Shown here one piece after another: positions 2,357-15,932 of a DNA stretch of 20,578 nt. How positions within the stretch are numbered: the stretch's first letter is position 1; each line of letters begins with the position of its first letter. This DNA comes from a virus. The stretch is from IMG/VR virus record IMGVR_UViG_3300030102_003028, positions 14,191-34,768 of that record. The stretch is one strand, 5' to 3'. The position numbers and the translations under genes were made by a program. The notes beneath the pieces were generated by a model. It did not search any database and was not told the origin of the DNA. It worked only from the letters and a program-made list of their open reading frames with translations.

Positions 2357-3265
2357 CTACGATAAGGTTAGGTTCAAGTTACGACCTACCTCTAACCATT
2401 TACTACCATTATATCTAAATACAAACAAATCTCCTTGACTAGCAGTTGTTGTCAATGTGGGTGCTGTATCTGATGCAAATTCATAAGCTGCGTTCCATGT
2501 AAGGGTACGAGAGCCTGTGCCATCTTGGATGACTAACAAAGACACGAACTGTCCAGCTTGGCCATTAGAAGCGGCACCTAAGGTTCTGTTACCACCGAGA
2601 GTTACTTTAGCAACAGGATCAGTAGAAGCATCCCAAGAGATAGTAGCTCCGTCTGTTAATGTTGATTCTGCGTTATAAGCACCTACATTCAAAAGTAAGT
2701 TTGCAGTTTTGAAAGAAGCAACATCAGTACCACCCGCTTTAATATCTATTTGATCGTCAGTATCAGCAGTAATGGAACTATCAGCATCAGCGTCTAAGAT
2801 TAACTCATTACCATTAATATCTACTGTTTGATTAAGGACTGGAATACCACTGTTAGTGGAGTTAAGAATAGAGAGAGCAATAGTAAGACTTTCGTTAGAT
2901 AGTGAACCACTATCCCATGTGACGTTTACTGTTGTGTTTGTAGAGAAAGAAGAAGAAGAAATAGTACCATAAATTGTACCTGTTGAACTTCCTACTGCTC
3001 TTACTCTTCTACCAGCATGATAGATAGATGTGACATCTATTCCATTAACAGTAAAGGATGTACCACTCGCATAAGCGATTGTGAATGATCCATCACCATC
3101 TCCATATTCAAACCAGTTAGCATCGTTCCATTGGGAACGAGAATCTGCTAATACCTGGCGTATTGCATTGTTAATACCACTGGGAGCACAACCCTCACTA
3201 ATATCAATAGAATTGATAGTAGAGTTGTTACCTGCCGTAGTATCATACTCTTTTATTCCAGCCAT
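2357..3265 (-). CDS. Tail fibre/stalk structural protein
   Basis: A 302-residue, Ser/Thr/Asn/Asp-rich beta protein. The N-terminal segment (about 17-46) contains SIDISEGCAPSGINNAIRQV, a pattern common at the start of phage tail-fibre and stalk proteins, where it probably anchors to the tail. Around residues 155-175 is the pattern ELILDADADSSITADTDDQI, typical of fibre shafts in marine phages. The C-terminal 90 residues (VTLGGNRTLGAASNGQAGQF ... FRYNGSKWLEVGRNLNLTLS) form a compact domain found at the tips of many phage structural proteins. The gene has an AAGGAG site upstream and sits between the large ejection-type protein and the tail assembly-like gene. The role is inferred from pattern and context; the exact position in the virion is unknown. 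Confidence 0.75.
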   Translation of the reverse strand: MAGIKEYDTTAGNNSTINSIDISEGCAPSGINNAIRQVLADSRSQWNDANWFEYGDGDGSFTIAYASGTSFTVNGIDVTSIYHAGRRVRAVGSSTGTIYGTISSSSFSTNTTVNVTWDSGSLSNESLTIALSILNSTNSGIPVLNQTVDINGNELILDADADSSITADTDDQIDIKAGGTDVASFKTANLLLNVGAYNAESTLTDGATISWDASTDPVAKVTLGGNRTLGAASNGQAGQFVSLLVIQDGTGSRTLTWNAAYEFASDTAPTLTTTASQGDLFVFRYNGSKWLEVGRNLNLTLS

Positions 3266-7272: not shown

Positions 7273-8096
7273 TAAAAGAATCCTCCTAATAATCCTCCAA
7301 TACCAGCAGCACCTAGGGTACCTGCTGTGCTTAATCCAGCTAAACTACCTAACTGAGCACCACCTAATGCACCACCTAATAAGTTAGCACCTAAGTTTCT
7401 GTAAATAGGTTGTTGTGATACTGTTTGTTGAGATGTCGGAGCACCAATCGATGCTAGGTATTCTCTGAGTTTAGTGTAAGGTTTTTGTTGTTCGAATTGG
7501 AATCGTTGCATTGCATCAGCTAATCTAGCTTCTTCCATTGCTTCTCTTTGTTGACCTACTTGTGCTAGTCTGGAAATATCTGCGTAATCTTGTTGTGCCA
7601 TTTGAGGAGCTAATTGGGCAGCTTGTAATTGTCTTGCACGTTCTTGTTGATATGCTCCACCATAGATTTGAGAGGCAATATCACCCATTCTTCTTCCAGC
7701 AGTTTCTGCCATTGCACCCGAACCATAACGACCACCTTTAGCAAACATAGAACCTAATTGACTTTGAACGTCACCAGCAGCTCTTTGGAATGTTTGTTGT
7801 AGATAAGGATTGGTAGCGGGATCTAGATATTGACCAGTTAAAATGTTTTGAATTTCTGTTTGTGCTGCACCTAATAATGGACTCCCAGCGAGAGCTCTTT
7901 GTTCTTGTAGTTGTAGTGCAGCTTCTGTTTGACCTGAAAAAGGTACATACGTAGCCTCAGGAAAGTATTGAGGTACATCTGATTGATATAACTGTTGTGC
8001 TTGTTGTAGAGCTTCTTGATAATATGGTCTAGTAAACTCAGAAGGTTCTGCTGTTACTGTAGTTGCTTGTTGTGTTGGTTGTGATCCTTTACTCAT
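7272..8096 (-). CDS. Probable ejection protein with glycine-zipper C-terminus
   Basis: A 274-residue, glutamine/alanine-rich, helical protein. The central part has NPYLQQTFQRAAGDVQSQLG (about 96-115) followed by FAKGGRYGSGAMAETAGRR (about 118-136), a pattern shared by many phage tail or ejection proteins. The last 40 residues (about 235-274) are almost entirely Gly, Leu and Ala with GxxxG spacings (ANLLGGALGGAQLG ... GGLLGGFF), resembling membrane-inserting glycine zippers. This is consistent with a small ejection protein like the first of the P22 trio, though no direct family match is claimed. The start is supported by TAAAGGAAATAAA before ATG, and the ATGA overlap couples it to the GNAT-like gene upstream. 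Confidence 0.65.
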   Translation of the reverse strand: MSKGSQPTQQATTVTAEPSEFTRPYYQEALQQAQQLYQSDVPQYFPEATYVPFSGQTEAALQLQEQRALAGSPLLGAAQTEIQNILTGQYLDPATNPYLQQTFQRAAGDVQSQLGSMFAKGGRYGSGAMAETAGRRMGDIASQIYGGAYQQERARQLQAAQLAPQMAQQDYADISRLAQVGQQREAMEEARLADAMQRFQFEQQKPYTKLREYLASIGAPTSQQTVSQQPIYRNLGANLLGGALGGAQLGSLAGLSTAGTLGAAGIGGLLGGFF

Positions 8097-8521
8097 TTTA
8101 TTTCCTTTACAAAGTATACTGCTTGAGGTTCATAGTCTCTCAAAACTTTTGTCCATCCTTTCCGACCAACAATCTCTAATCGTTGGCAATTATTTCTTTT
8201 AGCCCATGCCTCTACTTTTTCTGTAAGAGGTTTGAGCCATGATTCCATATTAGAACCACCAGCGAGAACCCATCTCATTACCCTCATTTGAGGATAATCG
8301 CATACTTCTGTAACAAAGGAGGCTTCTATACCATCGTTCCAACTAATCCATAGTTGCATCCGATTTTCCTTTATATAGTTAAGTATATCATAACTAGAGT
8401 ATGATCCATCGAGGGCTTTCTCTAACTGGGCCTTTACTTGTGGCCAAATAAACTCTAAATCTTCTACGGGTACTTGTGTTACGACTCTACCCAATGATGA
8501 CATATTTGTATGTTCTAACAT
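8093..8521 (-). CDS. GNAT-like phage structural-cluster protein
   Basis: A 142-residue protein resembling GNAT-fold proteins often encoded among podovirus tail genes: QLWISWNDGIEASFVTEV (about 56-73) gives the beta strands, and WAKRNNCQRLEIVGRKGW (about 106-123) the later helix and strand. The usual acetyl-CoA loop (Q/RxxGxG/A) is not evident, so catalytic activity is doubtful. It may be a structural or assembly protein that reuses the fold. The start is uncertain. The ATG at 8521 lies 35 bases inside the upstream gene and has no clear Shine-Dalgarno. The in-frame ATG at 8503 (MSSLGRVV...) fits the look of related proteins better. It overlaps the next gene by four bases. Confidence 0.72.
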   Translation of the reverse strand: MLEHTNMSSLGRVVTQVPVEDLEFIWPQVKAQLEKALDGSYSSYDILNYIKENRMQLWISWNDGIEASFVTEVCDYPQMRVMRWVLAGGSNMESWLKPLTEKVEAWAKRNNCQRLEIVGRKGWTKVLRDYEPQAVYFVKEIK

Positions 8522-10253: not shown

Positions 10254-11234
10254 TTATGCCGCTTCCCATGTTTCGCTATTATTATTTGTTACTTCTGACC
10301 ATGTTTCTGTATTGCTAGATGTTAAAGCAGTCCATGTTTCTGTATTACTAGATGATATCACAGACCAATTAAATCCAATCGGAGAAGCAATCGATGTTGT
10401 TGTTACTTGTGCTGTTGTTGTTAACACTGGTGAGAATATAGCACTCGGATCGGCAGTTGTCGATACAGTGGTTGTAACATTATCAGGTTGAGCTTGAACT
10501 TCAAAAGCACCATTAGCTGTACTTGTTGCTGTTGTGTTAATACTAGCATCGTTGAGTCTTGTCACTAGTAAATCAACATCAGCAATGGTTACAGAAGTTG
10601 ATACTGAATCGGGTGTTGCAGGGCGAACACGAGCACTATTAATGGTATCAATAGTTGATACTGTGCTAATAGAACTATCACCAAACTTTGTTACTTGAGC
10701 AACAAAACTATCTATAGTCGCAATAGTTGATACCGAAGAATCAGTAAGTCTAACTCTCGTAGCATCGACATTTGCTATTGTCGAAACAGTAATAACCGCA
10801 GAAGGACTGCCTGTTTCAATAACTGTAGGATCAACATCGGCAATGGTAGCACTCGCAGATATACTTGCATCATTAAATCGAGTAACAAGAACATCAACAG
10901 TTCCAATAGATACAGAAGTTGATACCGAAGCATCATTGGTAATTAAGAGTCCACCAGTGCTTGTAACTGTAGCATTAGTAGAAATACTACCCCCATTTTC
11001 TCTTAGGGTAGTTGTTGCATAATTAGCAGAGTCTAATGAAAAAGGTAAACTGTCTAAATCACCTAGTAAGACTAAGTTATCAATACTTGTACCGACATTA
11101 CCATAGTCAAAAAAACCACTGCCATCATAGGCAGTTTTTGTACTAGTCCATACAGTAGAGTCTAAACTTACAGGTAAGCTATCAAGCGTACCGAAGTTAT
11201 CTAATTGCTCTAATGTTAATGGGCCAGAGGGCAT
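10254..11234 (-). CDS. Ser/Thr-rich repeat virion protein
   Basis: A 326-residue protein without a recognised enzyme fold. Three repeat systems are visible. First, an LDSLP(V/F)SLDS motif occurs at about 18-27 and 60-69. Second, roughly eight to nine degenerate units of 20-23 residues fill about 80-265, each with a DxSxSTxxTI-like strand followed by a V/D-V-T-R turn. Third, three 10-11-residue units SSNTETWTALT / SSNTETWSEVT / NNNSETWEAA end the protein. Its composition and periodicity suggest an elongated beta structure such as a fibre shaft, or a decoration with Ig-like features. The ATG overlaps the stop of the preceding tail-fibre-like gene by one base, and the gp10-like gene follows. A virion role is inferred from context. 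Confidence 0.72.
   Translation of the reverse strand: MPSGPLTLEQLDNFGTLDSLPVSLDSTVWTSTKTAYDGSGFFDYGNVGTSIDNLVLLGDLDSLPFSLDSANYATTTLRENGGSISTNATVTSTGGLLITNDASVSTSVSIGTVDVLVTRFNDASISASATIADVDPTVIETGSPSAVITVSTIANVDATRVRLTDSSVSTIATIDSFVAQVTKFGDSSISTVSTIDTINSARVRPATPDSVSTSVTIADVDLLVTRLNDASINTTATSTANGAFEVQAQPDNVTTTVSTTADPSAIFSPVLTTTAQVTTTSIASPIGFNWSVISSSNTETWTALTSSNTETWSEVTNNNSETWEAA
10257..10354 (-). repeat. 33-bp tandem repeats encoding ETW units
   Basis: On the plus strand the word ccatgtttc recurs at 10266, 10299 and 10332, exactly 33 bases apart. The copies at 10299-10321 and 10332-10354 are 23-mers differing at one base. They encode the C-terminal (S/N)N(T/S)ETW units in frame, so the near-identity reflects recent tandem duplication. 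Confidence 0.85.
10485..10994 (-). repeat. Degenerate ~21-residue tandem protein repeats
   Basis: Within the repeat protein, residues about 81-250 align in steps of 20-23 residues: DASVSTSVSIGTVDVLVTRF, DASISASATIADVDPTVIE, DSSVSTIATIDSFVAQVTKF, DSSISTVSTIDTINSARVR, DSVSTSVTIADVDLLVTRL and DASINTTATS. The steps are about 63 bases at the DNA level, with much synonymous and conservative divergence. This points to old duplication rather than recent slippage. Confidence 0.7.
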
Positions 11235-11629
11235 TAGGCAGCTGTGATTGTTAGATCACCAGATGATACTTTAAATACGTCTCCCGCTTCAATAGTTTTA
11301 GATGAAGTAAATGCTCCGTAAAATAGCAAGTTACCAGCTGAAGAAGCATCAAAGATACCAAAGTGTGATACTGTACCAAAGCCACTTCCTGTTGCTTGAT
11401 CAAAAGTAACATCGGCATTACTAGAAATAGATCCGCTAGAAGCAGAACCAAAAGTTAATGCTTTTCTTGTATAGGCAGTTCCAGAAGTAGAAACTTCTGT
11501 ACCACTTGCATCGTCTGCGGGATTACTTGTAAACAGGGCTAAGTACACAGCTGCTGGAGCAGATGTACTAGCAGTTCCTGTAAAGTGATCGAGAAATTTA
11601 TTCTCTAAATAGTCTGACATTGCTGACAT
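11234..11629 (-). CDS. Phage tail fibre-like/decoration protein
   Basis: A 131-residue protein matching a small family common in phage structural clusters. It has the start MSDYLENKFLDHFTG, then AAVYLALFTSNPADDASGTE, then AYTRKALTF, then ATGSGFGTVSHFGIFDASSA, then a GDVFKVSSGDLTI end. These proteins are usually annotated as tail-fibre-like or minor tail proteins; the exact location in the virion is not known. The pattern covers the whole length, so the gene appears complete. AAAGGAG seven bases before the ATG supports starting at 11629 rather than at the internal ATG at 11620. The gene follows the adaptor gene and overlaps the repeat protein gene by one base, suggesting co-translation and possibly assembly together. 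Confidence 0.78.
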   Translation of the reverse strand: MSAMSDYLENKFLDHFTGTASTSAPAAVYLALFTSNPADDASGTEVSTSGTAYTRKALTFGSASSGSISSNADVTFDQATGSGFGTVSHFGIFDASSAGNLLFYGAFTSSKTIEAGDVFKVSSGDLTITAA

Positions 11630-11642
11630 TTTTTATTCTCCT

Positions 11643-12272
11643 TTATGGGTTAGCTGCGTCTGACTTCATGGCAAATGCTGTTCTTCCAGAATATCTGCCT
11701 TGTTCGTCATCACGATTAATTAATTGAATTGCCTCATTGTATAAGGTCATCCAAACTTGTATTCTCTCATCATTCAAAATATAAGGTTGTGCCTCTAAAA
11801 GAGAACCATACAAATAAACTTGAGGATAATTAGAAAGTATATAGTTAGTTGTGGTACTGTCGGAAAGAGTAGGAATCTCACTAAAGTAAGTTAATTTTAA
11901 CGTATAAACAGAATCAGGAATAGGGTTTAATTTAATCTCATTACCAATAATACTATATTGTTGAGGAGTACCACTAGTATCTCGTAAATTGTCTAATTCA
12001 ATTTCTGTAGGATTGACATAGTCTAAAACAACATTAGGGTTACTATCAACAAAGAATTGAACCATCTCTAAAAAGTCACTAGGTAAATCAACAAATTCAT
12101 CGTTAGCAACAGTAGTTGTGGAAACTCTTTTTTGCATTACCCGTAATCTCAAGACTCTATTCATTTTAGCTTCTGCTAAAGTGATAAAATCAGGTATAAC
12201 AGAACTTAAATCTGATCTATTCAGATAATTCGCAATACTTGTTTTCAATTCTGTGTATGATGTTAATGCCAT
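11643..12272 (-). CDS. Head-tail adaptor protein (gp4/SU10 adaptor-like)
   Basis: A 209-residue protein with the hallmarks of podovirus adaptor proteins: a helical N-terminus YTELKTSIANYLNRSDLSS followed by IPDFITLAEAKMNRVLRLR (about 25-43), then VANDEFVDLPSDFLEM, YSIIGNEIKLNPIP, and a helical C-terminal part with YLYGSLLEAQPYI. In SU10 and P22-like virions, twelve copies bind under the portal and link it to the tail nozzle. The location between the head genes and the gp10-like gene agrees. The ATG overlaps the preceding stop by one base. I am confident of the family type, less so of the exact number of copies or partners. Confidence 0.82.
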   Translation of the reverse strand: MALTSYTELKTSIANYLNRSDLSSVIPDFITLAEAKMNRVLRLRVMQKRVSTTTVANDEFVDLPSDFLEMVQFFVDSNPNVVLDYVNPTEIELDNLRDTSGTPQQYSIIGNEIKLNPIPDSVYTLKLTYFSEIPTLSDSTTTNYILSNYPQVYLYGSLLEAQPYILNDERIQVWMTLYNEAIQLINRDDEQGRYSGRTAFAMKSDAANP

Positions 12273-13830: not shown

Positions 13831-14835
13831 TTATAAGAATTGCTTTAAAACATTAGCAGCATCTCTCATCGATCCTGTTTGTTTTAAGCGAGATTTTAAC
13901 GACTTGGCTTGTTGACTGTCTTTGTTGATTGTTTTTGTTGTTCCACTGCGAACCATTTTAGGCACAGGTTTGGACTGTTTAGCAGAGACTTTTGAGTTCA
14001 TCATCTTATCATAAAGCATCGCTTTCTTGGCAATCACGAATGATCGATGATCTACCATCATGTTCAACTCTTGATCTGAGTAGCCTTCTTTTTTAAGATA
14101 ACTCGTCATATCTTTGCGTAAGCCTTCACCTTTCACAGGATCAACATACTCGGGCTCTTTTTCAGCAAGGAGTTTTTTTTGTTGTTCCAAGTATTGATTG
14201 AATACTTTGGTCTGCTCTTGCTGTTGCTCTTCTAAAGCACGTTGACGTTCTGCCTTAATGGTTTCTAACGCTTTGGATTTATTCTCAACTTCAATCTTTT
14301 TGCGATGATATTCATCGGGATCAGTTTCATATAACTTTGCCCAATCAATATTCGCATCAGGTTGCATTGAGTTTTCAATCTCACCTAGACGTGTCGCATA
14401 GTCTTGTCGTAGTTTTGCCACCGCATCGGACTCGGACTTCGCTTTATTGACTTCCTCTTCTAAGAGTCGTCTTTCATCAGCTAGTTCCATCGTCTTTCTT
14501 CGATAGTCTGAATCTCGTTGATAACCAGACATTAGTTCATCGAGGGTAACTTCAACAGGTTTGCCATTTACTTTAATTTGATATTTGGCTTCCTCTTCTT
14601 GTGCCTCTTCACTAACCTCATCAGTTAGATCTTCGGATTGACTTTGTTCTTCAACTTCCGCAGTTTCTACTTCACTCTCGGTAACCTCTTGAGGTTCGTC
14701 TTGTGTTGTTTCGACTGGTTCTGTTGTCTGCTCTTGGCTCTCGTCTGTGGCGTTCAACAAGTTAGCAAATGCAGATTGTGCTTGGTCTACAGTATTGTAG
14801 ACAGGTGTAGATTCCCCATTGGGATTGTCTGACAT
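13831..14835 (-). CDS. Capsid scaffolding protein
   Basis: A 334-residue protein with a very acidic first quarter (Glu/Thr/Gln-rich, about 30-83). It is followed by the motif YQIKVNGKPVEVTLDELMSG (85-104) and YQRDSDYRRKTMELADERR (105-123), then a long charged coiled coil (about 115-225) and a basic C-terminal tail (about 280-334). This layout is typical of podovirus scaffolds. By analogy with P22, the basic C-terminal helices would bind coat protein, and the acidic part leaves as DNA enters. It sits immediately upstream of the coat gene, as expected. The TAAAAGAAAGG site supports the ATG at 14835. No protease motif is visible. Confidence 0.85.
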   Translation of the reverse strand: MSDNPNGESTPVYNTVDQAQSAFANLLNATDESQEQTTEPVETTQDEPQEVTESEVETAEVEEQSQSEDLTDEVSEEAQEEEAKYQIKVNGKPVEVTLDELMSGYQRDSDYRRKTMELADERRLLEEEVNKAKSESDAVAKLRQDYATRLGEIENSMQPDANIDWAKLYETDPDEYHRKKIEVENKSKALETIKAERQRALEEQQQEQTKVFNQYLEQQKKLLAEKEPEYVDPVKGEGLRKDMTSYLKKEGYSDQELNMMVDHRSFVIAKKAMLYDKMMNSKVSAKQSKPVPKMVRSGTTKTINKDSQQAKSLKSRLKQTGSMRDAANVLKQFL

Positions 14836-14861
14836 GGTATATTACCTTTCTTTTATGATTA

Positions 14862-15104
14862 TTATTTGAGTTGTTCTGAAGCTAGTTTTCCAGTTTCCAT
14901 TTCTGAAATTAACATGGCCTCAAACTCATCAATAGCCTTGACGAGGAAGAATATTTTTTCACGACCTTCAACGTCTCTCAGGGGTGAGTTCTTCCATTCA
15001 GTGTCAAGTTTATTCCTGATTGCTTTCAAGGAATCTTGTAATAGAGGATTTTCTAAAATGTCTTTAGCTTGTTGTCCTCTAGAAATTTGTTTATTTAGAT
15101 CCAA
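14862..15104 (-). CDS. Small helical protein between portal and scaffold, TTG start
   Basis: An 80-residue, probably all-helical protein (LNKQISRGQQAKDILENPLL, then EGREKIFFLVKAIDEFEAML, then METGKLASEQLK). The family is a recurrent hypothetical protein in podovirus head operons; its function is unknown to me. The start codon is TTG, directly after the TAA of the preceding gene. The next in-frame Met is residue 63, so TTG must be the start, and AGAGGTGG seven bases upstream supports it. The C-terminal K-L-A-x-x-Q-L ending is typical for the family. It could assist portal or scaffold assembly, judged only by position. Confidence 0.72.
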   Translation of the reverse strand: MDLNKQISRGQQAKDILENPLLQDSLKAIRNKLDTEWKNSPLRDVEGREKIFFLVKAIDEFEAMLISEMETGKLASEQLK

Positions 15105-15932
15105 TTAGATACCACCTCTAATTCGACCACCAGCAATAGATTTACCAGCCTTCTTAGGTTCAAAACCAGTTCCTTTTATAGGTTTTCTATCTTTACCAAC
15201 TGTAAATGAACCAGCACCTTGTGCTCTAGCTCTTTCAGCTTGTGTCTGTGCGTCTATTAAATCTCTAGTCATCTCTGCTCTTAATTGTTGTCCTTCTCTT
15301 TTAGCAGCAGCTTGAGCGGCTTGTTCAGCAGCAACAGCATCTAAGATAGATTGTCTAGGAGTAACTGTTTGAGTTAAAGGTTGACCAAGACCAGCTAAAG
15401 GATCAAAACCTCCTCCTGTAAACCTAGGAGTTACTGTTTCTGTATAACTAGGGCCTAAACCAAAAGCATTTAACAATCCTACAACTGGAGAAAACTGCAT
15501 ACCTTTTCTAAAGAGGTCTCCTATAGTACTTCCTATAGTAGGTTGATATTCTTCTTGTGCAGCAAATCTTCTTAGTTCAGTGTTAATAGGATCATTAGCC
15601 ATTGGTGTATATATATCACCTAAGTATGGGCTTTCAAACTCTGTTCTTTGTCCACCATCTCCACCTTGTTGAAACATTGTATCGGGTTGGCACACACCAT
15701 CAATTAATTGATAACCTGGAGGACAAGGATCAAATGTTTCTTCAACAGGAGTTTCAGTAGGGGTTGTGTCTAGTTGTGGTCGAGGAAATCTTGCACCTTC
15801 GGGTAACTCACCCGCTTCGATTTGTTCTCTACGAATATCATAAATAGGGTTGTATTGGGGTGCGGTAGATGCTAATTCACCCGCTCTATAAGCATCAATG
15901 ATTGCTTGGTATCTAGGATCACTTCCGATCAT
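15105..15932 (-). CDS. Unknown protein with CPPGY motif, between portal and scaffold
   Basis: A 275-residue protein of unknown function. The N-terminal part (MIGSDPRYQAIIDAYRAGEL) looks helical. Residues 68-83 hold DPCPPGYQLIDGVCQP, a C-x10-C motif that recurs in proteins of marine phages. The middle is low-complexity and proline/glycine-rich. The region about 205-240 is an Ala/Gln/Arg helix (AAEQAAQAAAKREGQQLRAE), and the end is basic and glycine-rich (KKAGKSIAGGRIRGG). ATGA couples it to the portal gene. A virion or assembly protein is plausible from the location. The two cysteines could form a disulfide or bind metal, which is speculative. Confidence 0.65.
   Translation of the reverse strand: MIGSDPRYQAIIDAYRAGELASTAPQYNPIYDIRREQIEAGELPEGARFPRPQLDTTPTETPVEETFDPCPPGYQLIDGVCQPDTMFQQGGDGGQRTEFESPYLGDIYTPMANDPINTELRRFAAQEEYQPTIGSTIGDLFRKGMQFSPVVGLLNAFGLGPSYTETVTPRFTGGGFDPLAGLGQPLTQTVTPRQSILDAVAAEQAAQAAAKREGQQLRAEMTRDLIDAQTQAERARAQGAGSFTVGKDRKPIKGTGFEPKKAGKSIAGGRIRGGI
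15112..15119 (-). promoter_or_regulatory. Shine-Dalgarno that fixes the TTG start
   Basis: The leftward strand reads AGAGGTGG, a near-complete anti-SD match, seven bases before TTG at 15104. It lies inside the last codons of the upstream gene and accounts for initiation at a non-ATG codon. Confidence 0.7.

Follow-up and report, generated by a model that had tools for sequence, protein, structure and literature searches.

The window analysed here is a 20,578-nucleotide stretch of DNA comprising positions 14191-34768 of the 34.8-kb IMG/VR record IMGVR_UViG_3300030102_003028. Its minus strand carries, in this order, genes for a terminase, an SU10-type portal (PF23899, Pfam 7e-217), a scaffold, an SU10-type capsid protein (Pfam 3.2e-93), an SU10-type adaptor, a PF23140 protein, the 326-residue protein that is the subject of this analysis, a nozzle (hub), further tail or ejection proteins and a fibre (Table 1). 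The initial annotation had the neighbours of the gene right. The P22-type frame in which it set them does not apply, as the portal, capsid protein and adaptor are of SU10 type and the best structural matches of the nozzle are the nozzles of Pa223, VP1 and SU10, with P22 gp10 ranking eighth. The nozzle model (mean pLDDT 88) has as its top fold matches 9nwi_Y (TM 0.86), 8zkk_O and the SU10 entries 7z47/7z4b/7z4f. The phage is a short-tailed marine phage of the SU10/LUZ24/GP4 type and not of the P22 type in the narrow sense.

The PF23140 gene product matches chain a of the GP4 structure (PDB 8jou, E-value 1.2e-22). Relatives of this collar-like protein occur in 223 phage records, 142 of these being Mycobacterium phages, and also in the Gram-positive Sporosarcina phage Lietuvens, there beside baseplate J genes, so that the protein spans tail types. 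Elsewhere in the window, a large minus-strand gene at 1-1735 (record 14180-15925) may encode an adhesin of LamG/ConA-like type; this candidate receptor-binding gene is interrupted by an assembly gap, entering a short run of N near the window start. A small protein near the nozzle (window 8093-8521) resembles phiM5 gp26 by eye, and acetyltransferase-labelled genes near the nozzle are a recurring companion, being found in JC1, KLEP18-1 and phage OH also.

Table 1. Features of the tail region of the window (feature, position in the window, strand, basis).
SU10-type adaptor	11643..12272	minus	PF24175, 4.3e-38
Collar-like protein, relative of GP4 'fiber I' gp80 (PF23140)	11234..11629	minus	Pfam, 2.4e-43
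Gene under study, 326 aa, stop within coordinates	10254..11234	minus	ORF; plus-strand frame has stops
Dock-like motif 1, residues 7-26 TLEQLDNFGTLDSLPVSLDS, hydrophobic-acidic units LE / LD / LD	11157..11216	minus	
Dock-like motif 2, residues 50-69 SIDNLVLLGDLDSLPFSLDS	11028..11087	minus	DNA direct repeat D5, 129-nt spacing
Middle array, residues ~78-285, 21-residue beta-type repeats	10380..11003	minus	periodicity
C-terminal Trp array, residues ~288-326, W290/W301/W312/W323, period 11	10257..10373	minus	
Nozzle (hub) protein, 478 aa	8807..10243	minus	phrog_3287, 2e-83
Nozzle loop, residues 338-361, YTLEELDAISSSIDDLNLSLDSPFW region, placed like the SU10 fibre-dock loop	9161..9232	minus	alignment
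Candidate trimeric fibre, widespread N-terminus ...INSIDISEGCAPSGINNAIR...	2357..3265	minus	phrog_9017 tail fiber, 7.8e-05

Size and position of the reading frame stand as first annotated, with the strand now assigned as minus. The three repeat systems described for the protein are present, although they lie in series and are not nested. The two N-terminal LDSLPxSLDS segments align to each other with a local score of 57, a value reached in 0/2000 shuffles. The middle array shows periodicities of 21 residues (z = 4.4) and 43 residues (z = 5.6), with 0/500 shuffles reaching these values, and forms short alternating strands in a low-confidence AlphaFold2 model. The C-terminus has an 11-residue period (z = 7.3, 0/2000 shuffles), visible at the DNA level as three 36-nt copies at a spacing of 33 nt; the array thus agrees with the earlier description but its count does not, as four Trp stand in register (FNW followed by three ETW) instead of three.

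No match to the protein was found in Pfam, PHROGs or the PDB, tblastn gave no direct hit in 50,697 phage records, and profile searches of the PDB returned low-complexity matches only (eL29, Spt20-like). The searches place it in no known family, in keeping with the initial annotation, and gave no confident match to a characterised repeat-free one. It is not a member of the GP4 collar family PF23140 by Pfam, in which its neighbour is matched. The monomer structure prediction that had been suggested was run with AlphaFold2, using 44 relatives, and yielded no confident model (mean pLDDT 49.7, pTM 0.31), which was too poor for a fold search and was left out of it.

Six distant members, when aligned, varied too much to serve in a scan of the collection, and relatives were gathered through the nozzle alignment instead. 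Among the best 80 further loci, a sample biased to nozzles like that of this phage through this manner of collection, an ORF with a Trp ladder lies upstream of the nozzle in 60. Co-occurrence was assessed in 75 loci having both adaptor and nozzle, with close relatives left out: the protein sits between the PF23140 gene and the nozzle in 60 of the 61 loci with a PF23140 gene, whereas a Trp-ladder protein occurs in just two of the 14 loci without one (L028 and L043, unlike the rest; Fisher p 4.4e-11). The place of the gene between the collar-like gene and the nozzle is invariant, in keeping with the earlier assignment to the tail module. Far from being exceptional, as first supposed, genes of this type, which have no assigned function, are found widely in uncultured phages and are common in the SU10/LUZ24/GP4 group, and the same arrangement is found in the cultured phages Venkman, phiM5, Ochrobactrum phage OH and C72C1. 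In these two of the loci lacking the collar gene, the ladder behaves as if it were an independent module: at L028:6196-7485 an unrelated 429-aa protein with repeats terminates in a 10-residue Trp ladder, and at L043:7727-7924 there is a nearly stand-alone 65-aa ORF with six Trp, both lying upstream of the nozzle. It is worth mentioning that public records label members as 'putative E3 ubiquitin-protein ligase HERC6' or 'serine-rich adhesin' (L016:8467-9183, L015:6389-7219, L019:18802-19578), for which the sequences give no support.

Of 61 distinct relatives, 52 have a middle array that repeats best at 20 residues, eight at 21 and one at 16; z exceeds 4 in 50. The C-terminal aromatic spacing in relatives is 10 residues, the clade of the protein studied here being a 21/11 variant, and the ladder period is thus half of that of the middle array. 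Both ends of the protein are conserved and the middle varies, length ranging from 187 to 442 aa with repeat number; in L059, eight copies keep a 60-nt register in the DNA. The proposal that length changes by gain and loss of repeats therefore holds across the family, but not among close relatives, as nine of 11 homologues at 75-93% identity, found in viral contigs, have 326 aa and two (L010, L011) have 332 aa. L020, whose nozzle is closest to that of this phage (83% identity), encodes a protein of 191 aa that is only about 27% identical to the one studied here.

The ladder has four Trp in 41, six in 16 and three in four of the 61 distinct members, and these counts of four or six rule out a Trp ladder that is strictly three-fold in the manner of SU10. 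A ladder of five Trp was not seen in any member, the fifth W in L035 being a trailing WNW only, while by eye the ladder of L010 has five positions, one of them Ile. The six-Trp group requires five changes on the nozzle tree, at least four of which are forced by well-supported branches; for this tree L021, L025, L026, L062, L077 and L096, where a Trp is replaced by an aromatic, were scored as four. Ladder units seem to be gained and lost two at a time, consistent with a 20-residue unit of two strands, although change by two is not a rule, as some degenerate members have Phe for Trp or just two or three units.

The N-terminal segments resemble a loop of the neighbouring nozzle. The LDS segment aligns to residues 338-361 of the phage's own nozzle with a score of 56, a modest result given that 5/2000 shuffles score as high, and this loop is the sole low-confidence stretch of the nozzle model (pLDDT 55-71). 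A triple pattern of hydrophobic-acidic units, written after the sequences had been seen and its rates therefore describing the likeness and not testing it, is present once or twice in 52/55 distinct family N-termini (0.8% in shuffles) and in 37/39 nozzles (one or two copies), is absent from family proteins outside the N-terminus and, in 640 other reading frames, has a frequency of 0.023 per 100 aa. An LDS segment is altogether lacking in L016 and L019, and L020 is missed by the pattern. Independent support comes from a nozzle HMM, which by sequence matches 11 family members (E-values 5e-8 to 5e-4), in every case from nozzle columns 339-343. Nevertheless, the recurrence of a single small motif may have other causes.

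In phage SU10, the fibre dock loop of gp17 presents three Trp related by pseudo-threefold symmetry, and each chain of the trimeric short fibre is contacted at its Ile24 by one of them (PMC9509320). The loop considered here coincides with it in position. Against the Pa223 nozzle (9nwi_Y), the nozzle profile aligns with an E-value of 1.6e-25 and runs across the loop, placing 'tleeL.dnisssiDalttsLDs' over '..NLWDDDPNPWDTYTSVWGEG', with the three hydrophobic-D units on three W (NLWDDDPNPWDTYTSVW). SU10 gp17 aligns to the nozzle up to residue 820, which sets W839, W847 and W857 in the interval that the loop occupies ahead of the C-terminal domain; the equivalence is by alignment of the flanks, whole-length hhalign being weak (E-value 0.0027, probability 11%). 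From this position and pattern we infer that the LDS segment is a fibre dock of Leu/Ile type, and by analogy the loop at residues 338-361 of the nozzle probably holds the fibres of the phage.

The candidate fibre of the phage has an N-terminus which recurs in 26 loci, and an HMM of such N-termini gave no match to the SU10 short fibre gp16. All four loci with two INNAIR-type fibre genes have two docks in the protein studied here, which is a hint only, since numbers are small and most loci are short. Most dock-bearing loci show no INNAIR fibre within the stretch examined, and the record of this phage has one fibre of that type.

Taking these features together, the most likely role of the protein, at a probability of about 0.45, is that of a modular short-tail linker which supplies the tail with additional fibre sockets. 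In this reading the N-terminal LDS segments would each duplicate the dock loop of the adjacent nozzle protein, and the three hydrophobic-acidic units of a segment would hold the three chains of a trimeric tail fibre, one chain per unit, so that the N-terminal docks might hold one or two such fibres. The 20/21-residue beta repeats may serve as a spacer arm of adjustable length, and the Trp ladder with its step of 10-11 residues as a second binding element, either for the collar protein of the adjacent gene or for another appendage. These sockets would supplement those on the six nozzle subunits. The presence of the protein in the virion and its orientation there we likewise infer. The initial annotation had suggested a new type of fibre or collar, which is probably not the best reading, as the collar is the PF23140 neighbour and the N-terminus resembles a fibre socket. 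It is a more tentative proposition that marine podoviruses encode a detachable multi-socket protein of duplicated dock loops and an aromatic ladder, by which the fibres on one six-fold tail, or their kinds, could outnumber the docks of the nozzle, with socket number and arm length evolving by repeat duplication.

The protein might instead be a fibril between collar and adhesin, as reported for chain g of GP4 (8JOU, a dimer), in which case the LDS and Trp elements would be its anchoring ends; according to PMC13243795, one GP4 protein joins collar and adhesin in this way. The neighbouring gene does belong to the GP4 collar family, Bcep22-like phages have a protein of 22-residue repeats in the same place, that of BcepIL02 (gp56) being called virion-associated, and the even count of Trp units would go well with a partner of two strands. 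However, a family profile matched no chain of 8jou at E-values up to 10, nor did the Bcep22-like repeat proteins show such a match, the profile comparison of the family with these proteins is unconvincing, and the nozzle-loop copy at the N-terminus is left unexplained. A fibril is judged less likely than the linker, though it has some support, and one protein could be both fibril and dock-bearing linker. It is improbable that the protein is a receptor-binding fibre or adhesin in its own right with phase-variable length, for although the divergence from L020, the repeat-rich beta sequence and the range of lengths would all suit an adhesin, searches of Pfam, PHROGs and the PDB gave no tail-fibre, tailspike, lectin or depolymerase match, length is kept identical among close relatives, and conserved ends around a variable middle fit a linker better than a receptor-binding tip.

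Virion annotations of relatives disagree. In the phiM5 record many tail proteins, the collar relative among them, carry a mark of detection in that phage's particle proteome, whereas gp18, a family member by its place and Trp ladder, carries none. This would fit an assembly factor or a chaperone serving fibre attachment, absent or scarce in mature particles, whose docks hold fibres until they are handed over to the nozzle, and the likeness to the nozzle loop would suit such a place-holder. We regard this as quite improbable, given the strict co-occurrence with a structural collar gene and the annotation of BcepIL02 gp56 in the same place as virion-associated (its relationship being unproven); poor detectability, from few tryptic sites, is a simpler reason for the missing gp18 peptides.

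The question at issue is how short-tailed phages of abundant uncultured marine bacteria attach several fibre types. The gene adjoins the nozzle in most of the relatives examined, yet its public labels are misleading or absent. If the linker does carry fibre docks, a short motif of three Leu/Ile/Trp-Asp/Glu units would predict fibre sockets from sequence alone and open fibre number and exchange to testing, for which SU10 and Pa223 could serve as structural references. A separate multi-dock protein was not described in the open-licence papers searched and is new as far as the searched libraries show, whereas a tail-appendage linker or dock is as a kind already known in outline.

Proteins located after the collar gene in phiM5 (gp18), Ochrobactrum phage OH (p46), Venkman (gp51, 'HERC6'), C72C1 (WJE88089), MW202462 and MW202481 ('serine-rich adhesin') have a C-terminal aromatic ladder with a step of 10 residues. 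Their N-termini differ, with LDS docks in C72C1 and MW202462 and FGxxxFSQxPFSSL-like sequences in Venkman and MW202481. The Bcep22-like set, namely BcepIL02 gp56, JC1 54 and DC1 54, together with Itty13, POI1126 gp16 and PBC5 orf12, has its proteins in the same place after the collar gene and is similar in repeat length and beta-type pattern, but lacks the LDS dock and the Trp ladder; a link to the family is unproven (profile probability 1.4%). In the Zobellviridae MEP401 and CRP-4 (L111:3671-4794, L102:2447-3208), the gene products that follow the collar protein have at their C-termini three 'VKxxGxWK'-like units with a step of 13-14 residues, which are perhaps another kind of aromatic dock. 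GP4 shares the collar-family gene directly before and, according to PMC13243795, has a protein linking collar and adhesin, while the family has no detected sequence similarity to any 8jou chain. With the dock loops of SU10 and Pa223 there is likeness in the three regularly spaced hydrophobic units and in their place in the nozzle; the units are Trp in those phages and Leu/Ile-Asp/Glu here, and unlike in SU10 and Pa223 the motif also begins a separate protein, in which it stands once or twice.
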